A stretch of 64,000 bases of DNA, from positions 186,001-250,000 of the forward strand of contig NZ_JACSQG010000003.1 in the NCBI RefSeq assembly GCF_014836765.1, written 5' to 3'. Source of the DNA: Serpens gallinarum. Lineage in GTDB: Bacteria; Pseudomonadota; Gammaproteobacteria; Pseudomonadales; Pseudomonadaceae. The position numbers and the translations under genes are program-made. The notes below the pieces were generated by a model. The model saw nothing but the letters and a program-made list of their open reading frames with translations, had not been told where the DNA came from and did not search any database. Of this stretch, positions 18,753-61,598 are shown piece by piece (positions within the stretch are counted from its first letter, which is position 1; each line of letters opens with the position of its first letter).

Positions 18753-21296
18753 CTACTTCTCCTCCACGCCCAATTGCTCCCACATCGCCCGAGTAATCCG
18801 CTGGCGATTGGCATAGCCCTTCCAGGGATCACCCTTCATGTTGTCCAGCCGCTCGTGCAGGTTGTGAATCGTCCACTGGTTTGAGCTGTGTAGCTCGGTC
18901 AGTTCGTCACGGGCGATGGGCACTGACACCGCCAGGCCCGGTCGGGCGCGCACCGAGTAGGCGCACACGGTGCTGGCGCCGCGCTGGTTGCGCAGGTAAT
19001 CGATAAAGATCTTGCCGACCCGGTTCTTCGGCCCCGACGTGGCGGTAAAACGCTCCGGCAACTGACGCGTCAGGAGCTGGGCAATCGCCTTGCTGAAGCG
19101 TTTCACGGCGTCCCAGTCGTCGCGGCGAGCCAGGGGCACGATGATGTGCAAACCCTTGCCACCGCTGGTTTTCAAAAACGCCGAGAGTTTCAGCTCATCG
19201 AGCACCGTCAGGGTCAGCTGCGCCGCTTCCAGCATACTGCGCCAGGGCAGCGCCGGGTCCGGGTCGAGGTCGAGGACAAAGTGGTCCGGCGTTTCGATGC
19301 GGTCGTGGGTGGCGCCCCAGGTGTGCAGCTCGATGGTGCCCATCTGTACGGCGCCAATCAGCGCCTGCAGGCTGTCGATTTCCATGAGCTGATCGTGCTT
19401 GGGGTCCAGCGCGCGATCGAGGTGCTTGATGTGCGGGATGGCCAGGCGCACCGCGTGTTTCTGAAAGAATTGTTCGCCACCTACCCCGTCCGGGGCACGC
19501 AACAGAGACACTGGACGGTTGTCCAGTTTGGGCAGAATCCACTCGGCAATGCTGGCGTAGAAGCGCGCCAGGTCGAGTTTCGTCGCGCCGCTTTCGGGGT
19601 CGATCACCCGCTGCGGATTACTGATGCGGATCTCCGCCACCAGATCGCTTGCCGCCGGACTGCCGGCCACCGGATTGCCGGTGGGCGCGGCCTTAGTGGC
19701 GCTGCTTTTCAGCTCGGCAGGTTTCACCGCCCGTTCATGAACAATTTCCTCGGCTGGTTTGTCGCTGCGCTGGGCGATGAACGCCGCCTGGCGCACGATT
19801 CCTTCACGGGTCCATTCGGCAAATTCCACCTCGCCCACAAGCTTGGGCTCGATCCAGTGCACGTCCTTGATGGCGGTGCCACGCGGTGGGTTGGCGAGCG
19901 GTGCGTCGGCACGTTCCAGTTTGCGCATCTGGGCGTGCAGGGCTTTCAGGCTGTGTTCGTTGAACCCGGTGCCCACCCGTCCGGCGTAGCGCAAGCCGTC
20001 CTTGTCATTGACGGCCAGCAACAGCGCACCGAACCCGCTGCGGCTGCCCTTGGGCTTGCTGTAGCCGATAATCACGAATTCCTGGCGCAAGCGGCACTTG
20101 AGCTTGATCCAGTCGGGGCTGCGTCGTGATTGATAAGTGCTGCCGGCGCGCTTGCCGATTACGCCCTCCAGGGACATGGCACAGGCACTGGCGAGGATGT
20201 CGTGGTGGCTGGCCTGAAAGGCTTCGGAAAAACGCAGCAATGGCTGCGGCTTGTCCATCAACGCCTGTTGCAGCGCCGCGCGCCGTTCCTCTACGGGGCG
20301 TTCACGCAGGTCTTCGCCATTCAAAAAGGGCGCATCGAACAGGTAATACACAATTTCCTGGCTGCGCCCCAGGTCAAAGGCATTCTGCAGTGACTGAAAA
20401 TCCGGCAAGCCTTTCTCGTTGAGCACCACCACCTCCCCGTCCAGCCAGCTGTTGGGCAGGCCCAGCTCGGCAATGGCTTCGGCCTGCTGCGACAAGCGCT
20501 CGGTCCAGTCGTTGCCCTTGCGGGTATACAGGCGCACCCCATCGACGGTAATGCAAGCCAGCATGCGATAGCCGTCAAATTTGATCTCGTACAGCCAGTC
20601 GCCCGGTGGCGGACGGTCCACCAGCGTGGCCAGTTCCGGGGTCAGGCTGTCCGGTACCGCGACCGCTGCCTTGCGGGGCTTGGCTGCAGTGGATTTGGCT
20701 GTCTTGCTTGTTGGCTTTTTCTCCGTGATCCGCGCGCTGCTCAACACGCTTTCCGGGCGCGCCTGCACGATGTCGTAATCGCTGGCGGGACGCGCCGTAC
20801 CGTCGCGCTCCTTGATCAACAGCCATTGCTCCTTGTCGCCGCTGCCGCGCAGGTGGGTGCGTACCAGGGTCCAGTCGCCGCTGAGTTTTTCGCCCACCAG
20901 GGTGAACTTCAGCTTGCCGTCCCGGTACGCCGCGACCGGATCGCCGTGGGGCTGCCAGACGCCATGATCCCAGACGATCACGTCACCCGCGCCATAATGC
21001 CCAGCGGGAATGCTGCCTTCAAAGCTCGCATATTCCAGCGGGTGATCTTCCACGTGGACGGCCAGGCGCTTGTCGTTGGGGTCCAGGCTGGGGCCCTTGG
21101 GCACTGCCCAGCTTTTCAAGGTGCCGTTCAGCTCAAGGCGAAAGTCATAGTGCAGACGTCGCGCATCATGCTTCTGAATCACGAAACTTAGCGCCTTGTC
21201 GCTGTTGCGGCTCTTTTTTCGCGTCGTGTCGCCGCTCGGTTCAGGCGTCGCGGCAAAGTTGCGCTTGCGCTGGTAATGGCTCAACGGGTCGGCCAT
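18753..21296 (-). CDS. ligD: multifunctional ATP-dependent DNA ligase LigD
   Basis: LigD repairs double-strand breaks by non-homologous end joining with Ku. The 847 residues are in the Pseudomonas order phosphoesterase - ligase - polymerase. The phosphoesterase residues His43, His49, Asp51, Arg53, His85 and Tyr89 are all present, matching those of P. aeruginosa LigD shifted by one. The ligase lysine is Lys239 in YEIKFDGYR, after a Lys/Thr/Ala-rich linker (190-215). The primase-polymerase part occupies about 555-847 with the metal motif LDLDPDP. It lies nine bases after the ku stop on the same strand, so the two are probably co-transcribed. No defect is visible. Confidence 0.97.
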   Translation of the reverse strand: MADPLSHYQRKRNFAATPEPSGDTTRKKSRNSDKALSFVIQKHDARRLHYDFRLELNGTLKSWAVPKGPSLDPNDKRLAVHVEDHPLEYASFEGSIPAGHYGAGDVIVWDHGVWQPHGDPVAAYRDGKLKFTLVGEKLSGDWTLVRTHLRGSGDKEQWLLIKERDGTARPASDYDIVQARPESVLSSARITEKKPTSKTAKSTAAKPRKAAVAVPDSLTPELATLVDRPPPGDWLYEIKFDGYRMLACITVDGVRLYTRKGNDWTERLSQQAEAIAELGLPNSWLDGEVVVLNEKGLPDFQSLQNAFDLGRSQEIVYYLFDAPFLNGEDLRERPVEERRAALQQALMDKPQPLLRFSEAFQASHHDILASACAMSLEGVIGKRAGSTYQSRRSPDWIKLKCRLRQEFVIIGYSKPKGSRSGFGALLLAVNDKDGLRYAGRVGTGFNEHSLKALHAQMRKLERADAPLANPPRGTAIKDVHWIEPKLVGEVEFAEWTREGIVRQAAFIAQRSDKPAEEIVHERAVKPAELKSSATKAAPTGNPVAGSPAASDLVAEIRISNPQRVIDPESGATKLDLARFYASIAEWILPKLDNRPVSLLRAPDGVGGEQFFQKHAVRLAIPHIKHLDRALDPKHDQLMEIDSLQALIGAVQMGTIELHTWGATHDRIETPDHFVLDLDPDPALPWRSMLEAAQLTLTVLDELKLSAFLKTSGGKGLHIIVPLARRDDWDAVKRFSKAIAQLLTRQLPERFTATSGPKNRVGKIFIDYLRNQRGASTVCAYSVRARPGLAVSVPIARDELTELHSSNQWTIHNLHERLDNMKGDPWKGYANRQRITRAMWEQLGVEEK

Positions 21297-21305
21297 GGAT
21301 ATTCC

Positions 21306-22196
21306 TCATTTGCTGCGCGCGGTCTTGCCGGTTTTCTTGCGCGGCGCGGGTTTTTCCTTTGGCGTGCTGGCCGTGTCGTCCGTGTCCGCTTTCGCGCTTT
21401 CCCCGCGCTTGCCGCTCAGGCTGCGCTTGAGCAGTTCGGTCAGGTCGATGACATCGGCGCTGCGCCGCGCCTCGCCTGCCTCGACGCCTTCGACATGGGT
21501 GATCTTGCCGGCGCTGGCCTTCTCTTCCACCAGCTCCATGATTTTTTCCTGGAAGGTGTCGCGGTAGTCGTCGGGTTGCCAGTCGCCGCTCATGTCCTCG
21601 ATCAGGCGCTTGGCCATGTCCAGTTCCGCCTTGGCCAGGTCCGGTTTGCTGACCGCGCTGCCCAGTTCGAGAATCGCCAAGCTGCGCACCTCGGCGGGCC
21701 AGCGCAGCTTGACCAGTACCAGTGCATCTTCCAGGGGCATCAATGCCGCCAAGTATTGCCGGGTATGCAGCACGACGCGGGCCAGGGCCACCCGGCCGCT
21801 GCCTCTCAAGGCCTCACGCAACAGGGCGTAGACCTTCTCGCCACGCTTTTCGGGGCTCAGGTAATACGGCGTGTCGATGTTCTGCAGCGGGATTTGCTCG
21901 CGTTCGACGAAGGTGAAGATATCGATGGTCTGCGTCGATTGCGGATGGGCCGTGCGGATTTCCTCTTCGCTGAGGACCACATAACGCCCCTTCTCGAACT
22001 GCACGCCCTTGACGATATTTTCCGAGGTGATTTCCTTGCCGGTCACCTTGTTGATGCGCTTGTAACCGACCGGGTCCATGCTGCGCTTGTCCAGCCAGTC
22101 GAAGTCCACGCCCTGGCTGGAAGTGGCCGACACCAGGCCCACCGGGATGTGTACCAGGCCGAAGCTGATTGCGCCTTTCCAGATGGATCGAGGCAT
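21306..22196 (-). CDS. ku: non-homologous end joining protein Ku
   Basis: A homodimeric ring protein that binds DNA ends and recruits LigD. The 296 residues open with MPRSIWKGAISFGLVHIPVG, the family signature, and show the conserved blocks GYKRINKVTGKEI and TPYYLSPEKRGEKVYALLRE. The last 40 residues are Lys/Ser/Pro-rich (KKTGKTARSK), a basic tail typical of bacterial Ku. It is immediately upstream of ligD. Co-location with glycogen and stress genes suggests stationary-phase expression, by inference. Confidence 0.97.
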   Translation of the reverse strand: MPRSIWKGAISFGLVHIPVGLVSATSSQGVDFDWLDKRSMDPVGYKRINKVTGKEITSENIVKGVQFEKGRYVVLSEEEIRTAHPQSTQTIDIFTFVEREQIPLQNIDTPYYLSPEKRGEKVYALLREALRGSGRVALARVVLHTRQYLAALMPLEDALVLVKLRWPAEVRSLAILELGSAVSKPDLAKAELDMAKRLIEDMSGDWQPDDYRDTFQEKIMELVEEKASAGKITHVEGVEAGEARRSADVIDLTELLKRSLSGKRGESAKADTDDTASTPKEKPAPRKKTGKTARSK

Positions 22197-23916: not shown

Positions 23917-26388
<2,472 letters not shown>

Positions 26389-26563
26389 GAGGACGCCTCT
26401 CTCTAGTCGTGGCATTGAGCACCTTCATGCCGTGATGCCTACTGGATGACTAAGCGTGAGGCTGCCGCGAGCGGGCGGGAGTTCCCTCGAACCAATTCCT
26501 GGCCCGCCGCTCCACATGGATGACGCTGTGCATTTTTGTGTGGGTTTTATGGAGAGTGCCGCC

Positions 26564-26968: not shown

Positions 26969-27937
26969 TTACTTATCCCTCGCGAGTGCTGGCAAGTGTT
27001 CAGCGTTCAACAAGGGCGCCTTCGCCGCCAGACCGCCGAAGGAGATGGCCGGGTCGACATAACGCATCGCCGATTTCATGTCCTTCCAGCCGATATAGGT
27101 CATCAGGGTTTTTAGGTCCCAGCCATTGGCGGTCGCCCAGGTCGCGAAGCCGCGACGCAACGAGTGGCTGGTGTACAGCTCGGCCGGCACGCCGGCGCGC
27201 TGCAAGATCTGCCGCAGCAGCGCGATCATGCTGCCGGGGTGCAACCCCTCCTCGCCCAAATGCCCCCAACGGCTGATGCGCCGGAACACCGCGCCCTGAC
27301 TGATCCCCGCGACACCAATCCAGGACAGATAGGCCTGCACCGGGCACAACTGTTTCAACGCCGGCGCCTGGTAGGTGGTGCCGAGATTTTGCCGGTCACC
27401 TTTACTGAACGGCAGGTAGAGCGTCATGCCACTCCCCGCCTCGGCCTGAATGTGTTCAATTTGCAGGCGACACAGCTCATCGCTGCGAAACCCCCGCCAA
27501 AAACCCAGCAACACTAACGCCGCATCGCGCCTGCTGCGCAACAGCCGCGCGCTGTTTCCTGCGTTCAGGGCGTCGTCCGCCTCCTGTTCCAGCCAGGCGA
27601 CGGTTTGCTGCAGATGCTGCAACTGCAACGGCGCCGCCTGTTTTTCCTGGGCTGGATGCAAGGTACGGATACCTTTCAGCACCTGGCGCACCAGCGGCGC
27701 TTTGGTCGGATCGGGAAAGCCCTGACTGACATGCCATTGCGCCAAAGCCGCCAGGCGTTGCTTGAGCGTGTTCAGCGAAAGCGTCTGCGCATGGGCAGCC
27801 AGGTAGCGCGCGACGCTCTCGCTGGTGGCCGGCAGAAAGCCGCCCCAGCTCACTTCGAAATGCTCAATGGCCGACTGATAGCTACGCCGCGTGTTCTCCC
27901 GCGTACTCGCCTGCAGATAGCGCTCGATATCGCTCAT
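26969..27937 (-). CDS. tyrosine-type site-specific recombinase
   Basis: A 322-residue integrase-fold protein. A SAM-like N-terminal domain (1-95, YLQASTRENTRRSYQSAIEH) precedes a catalytic domain with the complete set Arg151 (GFRSDEL), Lys179 (FSKGD), His258-x-x-Arg261 (SHSLRRG), Trp284 and the nucleophile Tyr293 (MRYVD). It therefore looks active. No excisionase, attachment-site repeat or phage gene is nearby, so it is not obviously the integrase of a resident element. It is divergent from a KfrA-like gene across a 181-base AT-rich control region and converges with the Rho-N-like gene. Confidence 0.92.
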   Translation of the reverse strand: MSDIERYLQASTRENTRRSYQSAIEHFEVSWGGFLPATSESVARYLAAHAQTLSLNTLKQRLAALAQWHVSQGFPDPTKAPLVRQVLKGIRTLHPAQEKQAAPLQLQHLQQTVAWLEQEADDALNAGNSARLLRSRRDAALVLLGFWRGFRSDELCRLQIEHIQAEAGSGMTLYLPFSKGDRQNLGTTYQAPALKQLCPVQAYLSWIGVAGISQGAVFRRISRWGHLGEEGLHPGSMIALLRQILQRAGVPAELYTSHSLRRGFATWATANGWDLKTLMTYIGWKDMKSAMRYVDPAISFGGLAAKAPLLNAEHLPALARDK

Positions 27938-28024
27938 GGTCTACTCCCGCCTGCCCAGGCGTACTGAATTGCATCCCACAGACACCGATTTGCGTGATGA
28001 CACGGGATAATGCGCCGTTATTCT

Positions 28025-28050
28025 ATCTCACAAATAACAAAATATGAGAT
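28025..28050. promoter_or_regulatory. inverted repeat in the integrase/KfrA control region
   Basis: ATCTCA at 28025-28030 is mirrored by TGAGAT at 28045-28050 with an AT-rich 14-base spacer. It sits between two divergent genes in the most AT-rich segment of the neighbourhood. A binding site for the KfrA-like protein or the recombinase is possible; this is inferred from symmetry only. Confidence 0.45.
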
Positions 28051-28065
28051 GAAATTATATCCGTA

Positions 28066-28102
28066 TTAGTATGTAATTACGTGGTATGTAATTCAGTACT
28101 AA
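28066..28102. promoter_or_regulatory. direct and inverted repeats upstream of the KfrA-like gene
   Basis: GTATGTAATT occurs at 28069-28078 and again at 28084-28093, a 15-base period. The block is bracketed by TTAGTA (28066-28071) and TACTAA (28097-28102). KfrA proteins usually repress their own gene by binding such repeats, so this is a candidate autoregulatory operator close to the start at 28119. Confidence 0.5.
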
Positions 28103-28118
28103 ATAGTAGGAGCGAAGC

Positions 28119-29255
28119 ATGGCCCGAGGTGGCATCAACAAAGCGAACGTGCAGCGAGCCCGTCAGGCCCTGCTCGATCGCGGCGAGCATCCGAGCATCG
28201 ACGCGATACGTGTCGAGCTGGGTAATACCGGCTCGAAAACCACCATTCATCGCTATCTGAAGGAGCTGGACAACCAGCCAGCCACTGCATTGCGCACCGA
28301 CCAGCCGTTGAATGAGCAGCTTGCCGGCTTGGTCAACCAACTGGCCGAACAGTTAGCCGAGCAGGCGCAGGAAACCGTGAGTGATGAGCGCGCAGAGCTG
28401 GCCCGGGATCGTCTGGCCTGGCAGCAACGCTTGCAGGAGGCGGAACAACGTATTCAGCAACTCGGCGCCGAATGCGAAGCGCTGACGGCACAGTTGCAGG
28501 CGGAACAGCTTGCCCACCAACACACGCGTGAGGAATTTCAGCGCCTGCAAGTGGACAATGCACGCGCCCTGCAAGCCTGCCAGGACCTGCAAACACGCGT
28601 GCTGGAACGGGATGAGCACATTCGCTCCCTGGAAGAAAAGCATCAGCATGCCCGCGATGCCCTGCAACATTACCGCGAGGCCAGCAAGGAGCAGCGCGAA
28701 CAGGAAGAGCGCCGCCATGCCGCCGAGGTCCAGCACTTGCAGATGGAAATGCGTCAGTTGCAACAGACCTTGATCGTCAAGCAGGACGAACTGACGCGCC
28801 TGAATCGCGACAACGAACGCCTGACCAGCGAATCAGGGCAATTGCGCCGTGAAAATCATGCCCGGCAGGACGCTTTACAACGCCAGACAACGGAAATGGC
28901 GGAGTTGAAGGAACAACTCACCCAGGCTCTGACAGGTAATCAGGTATTGCAGGCGCGCCTTGAGGCCCAAGAGGTCGAAACCCAGCGTCTGGACAGCAGA
29001 TATGCTGAACAGCAACAGGCCATGGCGACAGCCCAAGCCATGCTGCACGATGAGCGCCTTGAGTTTTACCAGCGCCACGCTGCGCAGCGACAGCGCTTGC
29101 AGACGTTGAGTGCGCTTCTATCCCGAGCGTCCCAAGCGCTGTCCAAGGATAAAGTTGGCGCGCCTGGCGCTTTAGCGGTTGGCGATGGCGCGCTGCTGGG
29201 CTGGTTGAGCGAAGCTCAATCGCTGCTGGCGGAAGACACCAGCAGCGAGCCATAA
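28119..29255 (+). CDS. KfrA-like DNA-binding coiled-coil protein
   Basis: A 378-residue protein. Residues 1-115 match the KfrA N-terminal DNA-binding domain (INKANVQRARQALLDRGEHP, then SIDAIRVELGNTGSKTTIHR). Residues 60-330 are almost continuous Gln/Glu/Leu/Arg coiled coil, with a less helical tail ending AEDTSSEP. KfrA proteins are plasmid-borne, bind their own promoter and help stable inheritance by forming filamentous nucleoprotein complexes. TAGGAG at 28107-28112 is the ribosome site. Chromosomal pairing with a divergent recombinase is unusual and no plasmid functions are visible. It ends 26 bases from the convergent hemerythrin gene. Confidence 0.85.
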   Translation: MARGGINKANVQRARQALLDRGEHPSIDAIRVELGNTGSKTTIHRYLKELDNQPATALRTDQPLNEQLAGLVNQLAEQLAEQAQETVSDERAELARDRLAWQQRLQEAEQRIQQLGAECEALTAQLQAEQLAHQHTREEFQRLQVDNARALQACQDLQTRVLERDEHIRSLEEKHQHARDALQHYREASKEQREQEERRHAAEVQHLQMEMRQLQQTLIVKQDELTRLNRDNERLTSESGQLRRENHARQDALQRQTTEMAELKEQLTQALTGNQVLQARLEAQEVETQRLDSRYAEQQQAMATAQAMLHDERLEFYQRHAAQRQRLQTLSALLSRASQALSKDKVGAPGALAVGDGALLGWLSEAQSLLAEDTSSEP

Positions 29256-61507: not shown

Positions 61508-61548
61508 GAGGCATAGCCTATATGGGTTGTGACGCCGGGCCCCTCTGG

Positions 61549-61598
61549 CGATGAGTAAGCGTTTCTCATCGTGATGTCGGAGTCACTTTTTTTCCGAC
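61549..61598 (+). promoter_or_regulatory. two-hairpin leader of the TerC-family gene
   Basis: CGATGAG (61549-61555) pairs with CTCATCG (61565-61571), and GTCGGA (61576-61581) pairs with TCCGAC (61593-61598) around a T7 loop. They lie in the 112-base leader before the ATG at 61620, just ahead of the AAGGGG ribosome site. It does not match the yybP-ykoY riboswitch consensus known to me, but a regulatory leader is likely because homologous genes often have one. Confidence 0.5.

Follow-up and report, generated by a model that had tools for sequence, protein, structure and literature searches.

Divergent recombinase and helper genes

The 64,000-nucleotide window, the whole stretch of DNA analysed here, carries two divergently oriented genes. 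The left gene (26969–27937, minus strand) encodes a tnpS-like tyrosine recombinase of 322 residues, recognised by a match to PF00589 (E 4.6e-13 in the family scan), by homology to the Tn4651 recombinase of plasmid pWW0 (79% identity over 311 residues) and by its catalytic residues, with R151, K179, H258, R261, W284 and Y293 all located at the motif positions. It is the one TnpS match in the window's genome at E 0.001. The right gene (28119–29255, plus strand) encodes a tnpT-like helper of 378 residues, which combines an N-terminal KfrA_N DNA-binding domain (PF11740, E 1.9e-25 in the family scan) with a long coiled coil and shares 58% identity over 291 residues with pWW0 TnpT. The preliminary description of this DNA had reported a complete R-K-H-R-W-Y set, a KfrA-like coiled-coil protein and divergence of the two genes; all three are borne out, both reading frames lying at the positions given above.

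PF11740, a family described as DNA-binding, is also matched by TnpT from pWW0 (E 2.6e-26) and from pCAR1 (E 3.7e-28). The window TnpT resembles the KfrA proteins of plasmids in its KfrA_N domain and long coiled coil but differs from them in its association with a recombinase and a recombination site. In the one open-access paper found to name both TnpT and KfrA, KfrA denotes another locus, and the link of TnpT to the KfrA_N family is a small addition to the published TnpS/TnpT/rst picture. TnpT length varies, with 378 residues in the window against 332 in pWW0 and 558 codons in P. flexibilis (L072). Assignment to a defence system was rejected, as PADLOC returned just weak JetC matches for the coiled-coil protein and none for the recombinase.

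Organization of the intergenic site

The two genes are separated by a 181-bp rst-like recombination and control region (27938–28118), assigned from its position, from the spacing in relatives and from an rst profile match at 27952–28113 (E 3.7e-28, the window itself being among the 88 profile sequences). Its putative crossover core, ACGGGATAATGCGCCGTTATTCTAT (28002–28026), is an imperfect inverted repeat with a short spacer that aligns with a block conserved in relatives. An outer inverted repeat brackets the core, with a 19-nt left arm at 27961–27979 and a right arm at 28081–28099 that are 89% complementary; the right arm overlaps the presumed TnpT accessory site, for which a GTACCACA block is conserved in relatives. 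Two direct copies of GTATGTAATT, starting at 28069 and 28084 and hence 15 bp apart (28069–28093), form a presumed TnpT-binding element, an assignment made by analogy with the Tn4651 layout in the available text of PMC4619425. Both arms and the direct repeat are given on the plus strand, and core and accessory site are assigned by alignment and published layout. The spacing and motifs of this site recur in relatives. A+T content is 58% in the gap and 39% in the window as a whole, and 28031–28105 is the most A+T-rich 75-bp stretch of the window, equalled by no other; the A+T-rich, repeat-bearing control region of the preliminary description is therefore real, and its repeats fall into an ordered layout.

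The rst core occurs as a single copy in the window's genome, with no second copy at up to 3 mismatches, and therefore no substrate for inversion. The segment 28025–28102 likewise has no other match within its 397-kb contig, which was the DNA searched. A DNA-inversion module, as had been suggested, is thus not supported, and an inversion switch was rejected, since one core per genome at this mismatch limit leaves nothing to invert.

Relationship to Tn4651-type transposons

A plasmid search led to pWW0 and pCAR1. On pWW0, one transposon end lies 2.2 kb beyond tnpT and the opposite end flanks a Tn3-family transposase gene; these terminal repeats are presumably the ends of Tn4651. The pWW0 genes are named tnpS and tnpT here by position and from the papers, the plasmid record calling them 'site-specific integrase' and 'DNA-binding protein'. 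According to the available text of PMC7157771 and PMC4619425, the resolvase of the Tn4651 subgroup is formed by the tyrosine recombinase TnpS and the helper TnpT, whose divergent genes flank rst; this site contains two pairs of inverted repeats, one core and one accessory. The TnpS, the TnpT and the rst layout of this resolution module are all recognisable in the window. By homology and layout, the pair with its site is accordingly assigned as the TnpS-TnpT-rst cointegrate-resolution module of Tn4651-type Tn3-family transposons, rather than as an undescribed system, for which it had seemed the best candidate.

In common with Tn4651 (pWW0) and Tn4652, the window has a divergent recombinase and helper around a site of 180 bp with a similar repeat layout; it differs from them in having no detected transposase or terminal repeats and in lying in a chromosomal terminus region. 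In the part of PMC3056050 available, tnpS and tnpT are tabulated in four P. putida genomes and the Tn4652 tnpA in one only, and TnpS/TnpT pairs without a transposase of their own have already been listed in print. TnpS proteins on plasmids share 76–81% identity with that of the window (among 30 matches listed of 1625 records).

The Tn3 transposase domain PF01526 has 0 matches in the window's genome at E 0.001 (the control gave matches in two of 14 genomes, one of them E. coli), and a Tn4651-type TnpA has no match there at 1e-150. Because the genome searches scored only some initial candidates per genome, absences of TnpS, TnpT, the Tn3 domain and TnpA are not absolute. A search for Tn4651-type ends found none in the window with 3 mismatches allowed; across the 397-kb contig there was none at 4 mismatches, and there were four at 5. 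At these limits the locus shows neither the tnpA nor the terminal inverted repeats of a complete Tn3-family transposon. The nearest neighbours of the pair are genes for a Rho_N protein, glycogen phosphorylase and a hemerythrin protein, and several of the surrounding genes are common to the P. flexibilis locus. No phage gene or excisionase was noted near the pair from the list of reading frames and a few family scans; given the reading-frame content and the neighbours common to P. flexibilis, the edge of a prophage or ICE was judged unlikely.

Occurrence and linkage in Pseudomonadaceae

TnpS matches at 1e-15 are present in 195 of 398 Pseudomonadaceae genomes, and 178 of these genomes hold a close TnpS (best E < 1e-100), the other 17 being dropped from the close set with a best E > 1e-100. 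TnpT accompanies close TnpS in 175 of 178 genomes; it has matches in 199 of the 398, 24 of them without close TnpS. Among 126 TnpS rows, 119 have a divergent, adjacent TnpT with 161–273 bp between the matches. For this adjacency test 127 TnpS rows were used and one more was dropped; rows without a listed TnpT were left out, as were seven extra-copy rows without an adjacent listed TnpT (G012 twice, G069, G131, G234, G336 and G114). The earlier proposal that the two genes form a unit is upheld by this frequent co-occurrence and by the adjacent, divergent arrangement. The Tn3 transposase domain, found in 83 of the 398 genomes, shows no association with the pair (35 of 178 close-TnpS genomes vs 48 of 220 others; p=0.62), and of the 175 genomes that carry TnpS together with TnpT, 140 yielded no match to it.

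In six genomes (G010, G060, G299, G365, G295 and G025; loci L061–L067, L070 and L071) tnpS is not adjacent to rst-tnpT: 2.8 to 41.6 kb lie between them, or, in G025, they are on different contigs; both genes are kept in these genomes though unlinked. No rst match lies upstream of the separated tnpS genes, rst staying with tnpT. Inversion or integration by rst x rst recombination was therefore rejected as the cause of the separation in these six genomes. G230 was also rejected as a separated case, since both of its copies have a neighbour.

Location in the terminus region

The dif pattern used agrees with the PAO1 dif in the available text of PMC2731167. Of 72 genomes, 63 contain it in a single copy, and looser forms occur in others. 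The distance between pair and dif, determined for one copy per genome on 63 chromosomes (59 placed by the main dif pattern and 4 by a looser pattern, with genome sizes partly rounded), has a median of 82 kb. The pair lies within 50 kb of dif on 16 chromosomes, within 100 kb on 38 and within 400 kb on 62, where uniform placement would put 1.7%, 3.4% and 13.7%; the sole chromosome beyond 400 kb is that of G242, at 1.79 Mb. In seven genomes (G024, G106, G153, G188, G232, G353 and G372) the distance was measured from tnpT. Nine genomes were left out of this set: G077, G284, G352 and G357, where dif is present and the pair position was not listed, and G000, G001, G060, G068 and G219, where the search gave no dif or a doubtful one.

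The 34 copies at the ahpC locus described below lie 61–376 kb from dif, and for the 29 placed copies without ahpC nearby the distance is at most 50 kb in 16, at most 100 kb in 23 and at most 400 kb in 28. When copies are chained by neighbouring genes into contexts, which places G155 in the ahpC group without ahpC, the median distance is no more than 251 kb in any of the 19 placed contexts, and in 14 it does not exceed 100 kb; the corresponding binomial tails are 9e-21 and 3e-17, with contexts assumed independent and G242 hidden in a group of three. Additional copies listed for multi-copy genomes have dif distances of 465 kb (G131), 94 kb (G155), 181 kb (G362), 1.43 Mb (G114), 102 kb (G012) and 106 kb (G230).

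The GC skew of the 64-kb window alone is uninformative, and the whole contig was therefore used. The KOPS of this contig reverse their polarity between 166.6 and 180.7 kb (31:2 before, 1:28 after 180 kb), the cumulative GC skew reaches its maximum at 173,682, and the window pair lies 32–46 kb from this GC-skew/KOPS switch. The window rst core is thus, as in chromosome dimer resolution systems, a single recombination site in the terminus region. In P. flexibilis (L087, L072) 45 kb separate the pair from a dif-like site that has 2 mismatches; the KOPS switch is near that site, although the skew maximum of the contig is elsewhere, at 138 kb. Genome-wide patterns gave no canonical dif in the window's genome, the one 3-mismatch match lying on another contig (C1:744669). 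The slot known from P. flexibilis (C3:173083-175444 in the window's genome) yielded no dif either and contains a 526-codon frame, read by eye as catalase. The unrecognised dif of this genome may reflect divergence rather than loss.

Tn4651-type transposons near dif

In placed chromosomes, transposases of the Tn4651 type are mostly found close to dif, at 159 bp, 604 bp, 4.9, 5.0, 9.9 and 125 kb and 1.84 Mb, the last being a fragment in G242. Other Tn3 transposase matches (13 listed, G314 being among those left out) lie 25 kb to 3.1 Mb from dif, and the seven Tn4651-type copies are nearer than these 13 (Mann-Whitney p=0.003). The Tn4651-type ends are placed similarly, at 24 bp (G131, C1:3427472-3440617), 104 bp (G383, C1:2971171), 3.5 kb (G125), 4.8 kb (G362), 5.1 kb (G108), 9.7 kb (G221) and 125 kb (G187), both terminal repeats having been found in G131, G125, G362 and G108 only. 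With ends between 24 bp and 10 kb from dif in six of seven cases, insertion bias is therefore the likeliest cause of the location, and insertion near dif or the terminus followed by transposase loss is the simplest reading of where the pair lies. Tn917, another Tn3-family element, favours the terminus. By title, none of the matches listed from the open-access literature deals with dif-proximal TnpS/TnpT. The available text of two papers touches on related subjects, with tnpS insertions used for mutation assays (PMC3485313) and another single-recombinase dif system found via a mobile element (PMC9765430).

In a TnpS tree that kept every fourth ahpC-locus row, the window TnpS clusters with 15 others, including six of the seven transposon-borne rows (98/84). 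The P. flexibilis TnpS lies near Azotobacter on a long branch with weak support (81/71) and is not sister to the window TnpS; replacement of TnpS at the site common to the window and P. flexibilis is possible.

Retention beside ahpC and ahpF in the P. fluorescens group

Among the named loci (the best 80 of 221), 63 have ahpC and/or ahpF within 10 kb, and the order in examples of this ahpC locus is gor - tnpT - rst - tnpS - ahpC - ahpF, where the names ahpC, ahpF and gor were assigned through representatives of these families. No Tn4651-type TnpA was found near the pair at these 80 loci, in flanks of up to 10 kb on each side. Median dN/dS at the ahpC locus, from pairs that are limited to dS 0.2–1.0 and are not independent, is 0.057 for TnpS and 0.096 for TnpT, against 0.082 for ahpC, 0.081 for ahpF and 0.042 for gor. 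TnpS and ahpF distances correlate (rho 0.79, n=55, 0 of 999 permutations as high), as vertical inheritance would give. The catalytic set is intact in all 63 ahpC-locus TnpS proteins. The core follows one strict pattern in 55 of 61 loci with tnpT, with slight departures in 6, and in P. fluorescens-group genomes it occurs exactly once, at the pair, in 16 of 18 and not at all at 2 mismatches in the other 2. Within the P. fluorescens group, the pair has been passed on vertically beside ahpC/ahpF under purifying selection. These selection statistics belong to the ahpC locus of that group and not to the lineage of the window, where a single comparison gave dN 0.17 and dS 0.91 for TnpS and a dS of 1.9, near saturation, for TnpT.

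Origin and possible function of the module

The window pair is very probably an orphaned TnpS-TnpT-rst resolution module of Tn4651-type transposon ancestry. The preliminary description had envisaged a domesticated plasmid remnant, of which the remnant fits and the plasmid does not, the likely source being a transposon. Its ancestor would have arrived with a Tn4651-type transposon, a type tending to sit near dif, and the transposase and ends would subsequently have been lost, with recombinase, helper and site retained; we infer an ancestral insertion at the window locus, where no ends remain. The KfrA-like TnpT would bind the repeats near its own start and organise the site, and it probably regulates both genes, while TnpS would cleave at the core and recombine two rst copies brought together with TnpT. 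A lone chromosomal rst could find its partner in the sister copy or a chromosome dimer, or in an rst-bearing plasmid or transposon that enters the cell. Given one rst per chromosome, the module should therefore act as a resolvase and not as an inversion switch. We infer transposon decay as the origin, together with continued recombination activity, these substrates and a benefit; the reason for retention is perhaps resolution of sister chromosomes or of cointegrates. Retention under selection would argue for use, and the position may reflect history, use or both.

Whether the terminus location carries functional meaning can be weighed from the same data. It may simply be the scar of insertion bias, with the orphan pair slowly decaying or selfish and of no benefit to the host, a substantial possibility that stops short of being probable: Tn4651-type ends lie 24 bp, 104 bp, 3.5, 4.8, 5.1 and 9.7 kb from dif in six of seven cases and other Tn3 transposases lie farther away (7 vs 13 matches, p=0.003), but a neutral remnant would decay, whereas the 63 of 63 catalytic sets and the core are kept and dN/dS at the ahpC locus (0.057 for TnpS, 0.096 for TnpT) is near the values of ahpC, ahpF and gor. 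A chromosome-maintenance role, suggested earlier and compatible with the terminus location, is unproven. In one form, TnpS/rst would be an accessory system selected near dif to resolve dimeric or entangled sister chromosomes, which appears rather unlikely. It would account for the pair lying no more than 400 kb from dif on 62 of 63 chromosomes (28 of 29 among copies away from the ahpC locus), for one core per genome where tested and found, and for purifying selection on genes and core, and it has a precedent in recombinases linked to their own site at the terminus. According to the available text of PMC2731167, XerS/difSL and XerH/difH resolve, or are thought to resolve, dimeric sister chromosomes, and they resemble the window pair in that one tyrosine recombinase gene and the site of that recombinase lie together in the terminus region; they differ in that TnpS is reported with a TnpT helper and in that a canonical-looking dif is usually present too, as in 63 of 72 genomes here. 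The pair, moreover, lies neither at dif nor at the KOPS switch, the 34 ahpC-locus copies are 61–376 kb off, extra copies lie as far as 465 kb or 1.43 Mb from dif, and insertion bias accounts for the place without selection on position. A related conjecture, entertained with low confidence, is that Tn4651-type transposons home near dif, that leftover TnpS/TnpT/rst modules have repeatedly been kept as a second sister-chromosome recombination system, and that rst might even take over some of the dimer resolution in the window's genome, whose terminus contig has no recognised canonical dif.

Two further explanations place the benefit elsewhere. Chromosomal rst could be a docking site that recombines with rst on plasmids or transposons, the pair being kept as a capture platform. 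The very similar TnpS proteins on plasmids (76–81% identity, 30 matches listed of 1625), the genomes with extra copies, the different TnpS lineages that occupy one shared site in the window and P. flexibilis, and the passengers between tnpS and tnpT reported from Xanthomonas in the available text of PMC4619425 point this way; the six separated cases, which keep rst with tnpT and have none upstream of tnpS, are unlike the outcome of rst x rst integration, and such a role is improbable. Retention of TnpT and rst as a transcriptional control unit, for example of downstream ahpC, with recombination incidental, is very unlikely: KfrA_N is described as DNA-binding and in examples from the P. fluorescens group ahpC follows tnpS on one strand, yet catalytic residues and crossover core are kept, and no ahpC/ahpF relative was grouped from 14–42 kb of the window.

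If the preferred reading of an orphaned transposon module is right, a transposon resolvase has persisted after the loss of its transposon in many bacteria of this family, with selection maintaining it in one region of the chromosome, a case of domestication open to testing, and the dif-proximal placement of Tn4651-type elements bears on target choice in the Tn3 family. Many genes annotated as 'site-specific integrase' and 'DNA-binding protein' would gain a concrete function, and TnpT would be joined to the KfrA_N family.

Additional features of the window and of the ahpC loci

Genes for DNA ligase D and Ku, of non-homologous end joining (18753–22196), and for glycogen phosphorylase (23917–26415) also lie in the terminus region within the window, and a terC RNA family match of 58.4 bits occurs at 61527–61589. 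At some ahpC loci (L100, L101, L104–L106, L155 and others) extra bases are present between the two genes, with gaps of up to 391 bp, and of 704 bp in L155, where the intergenic region contains repeats resembling REP elements.
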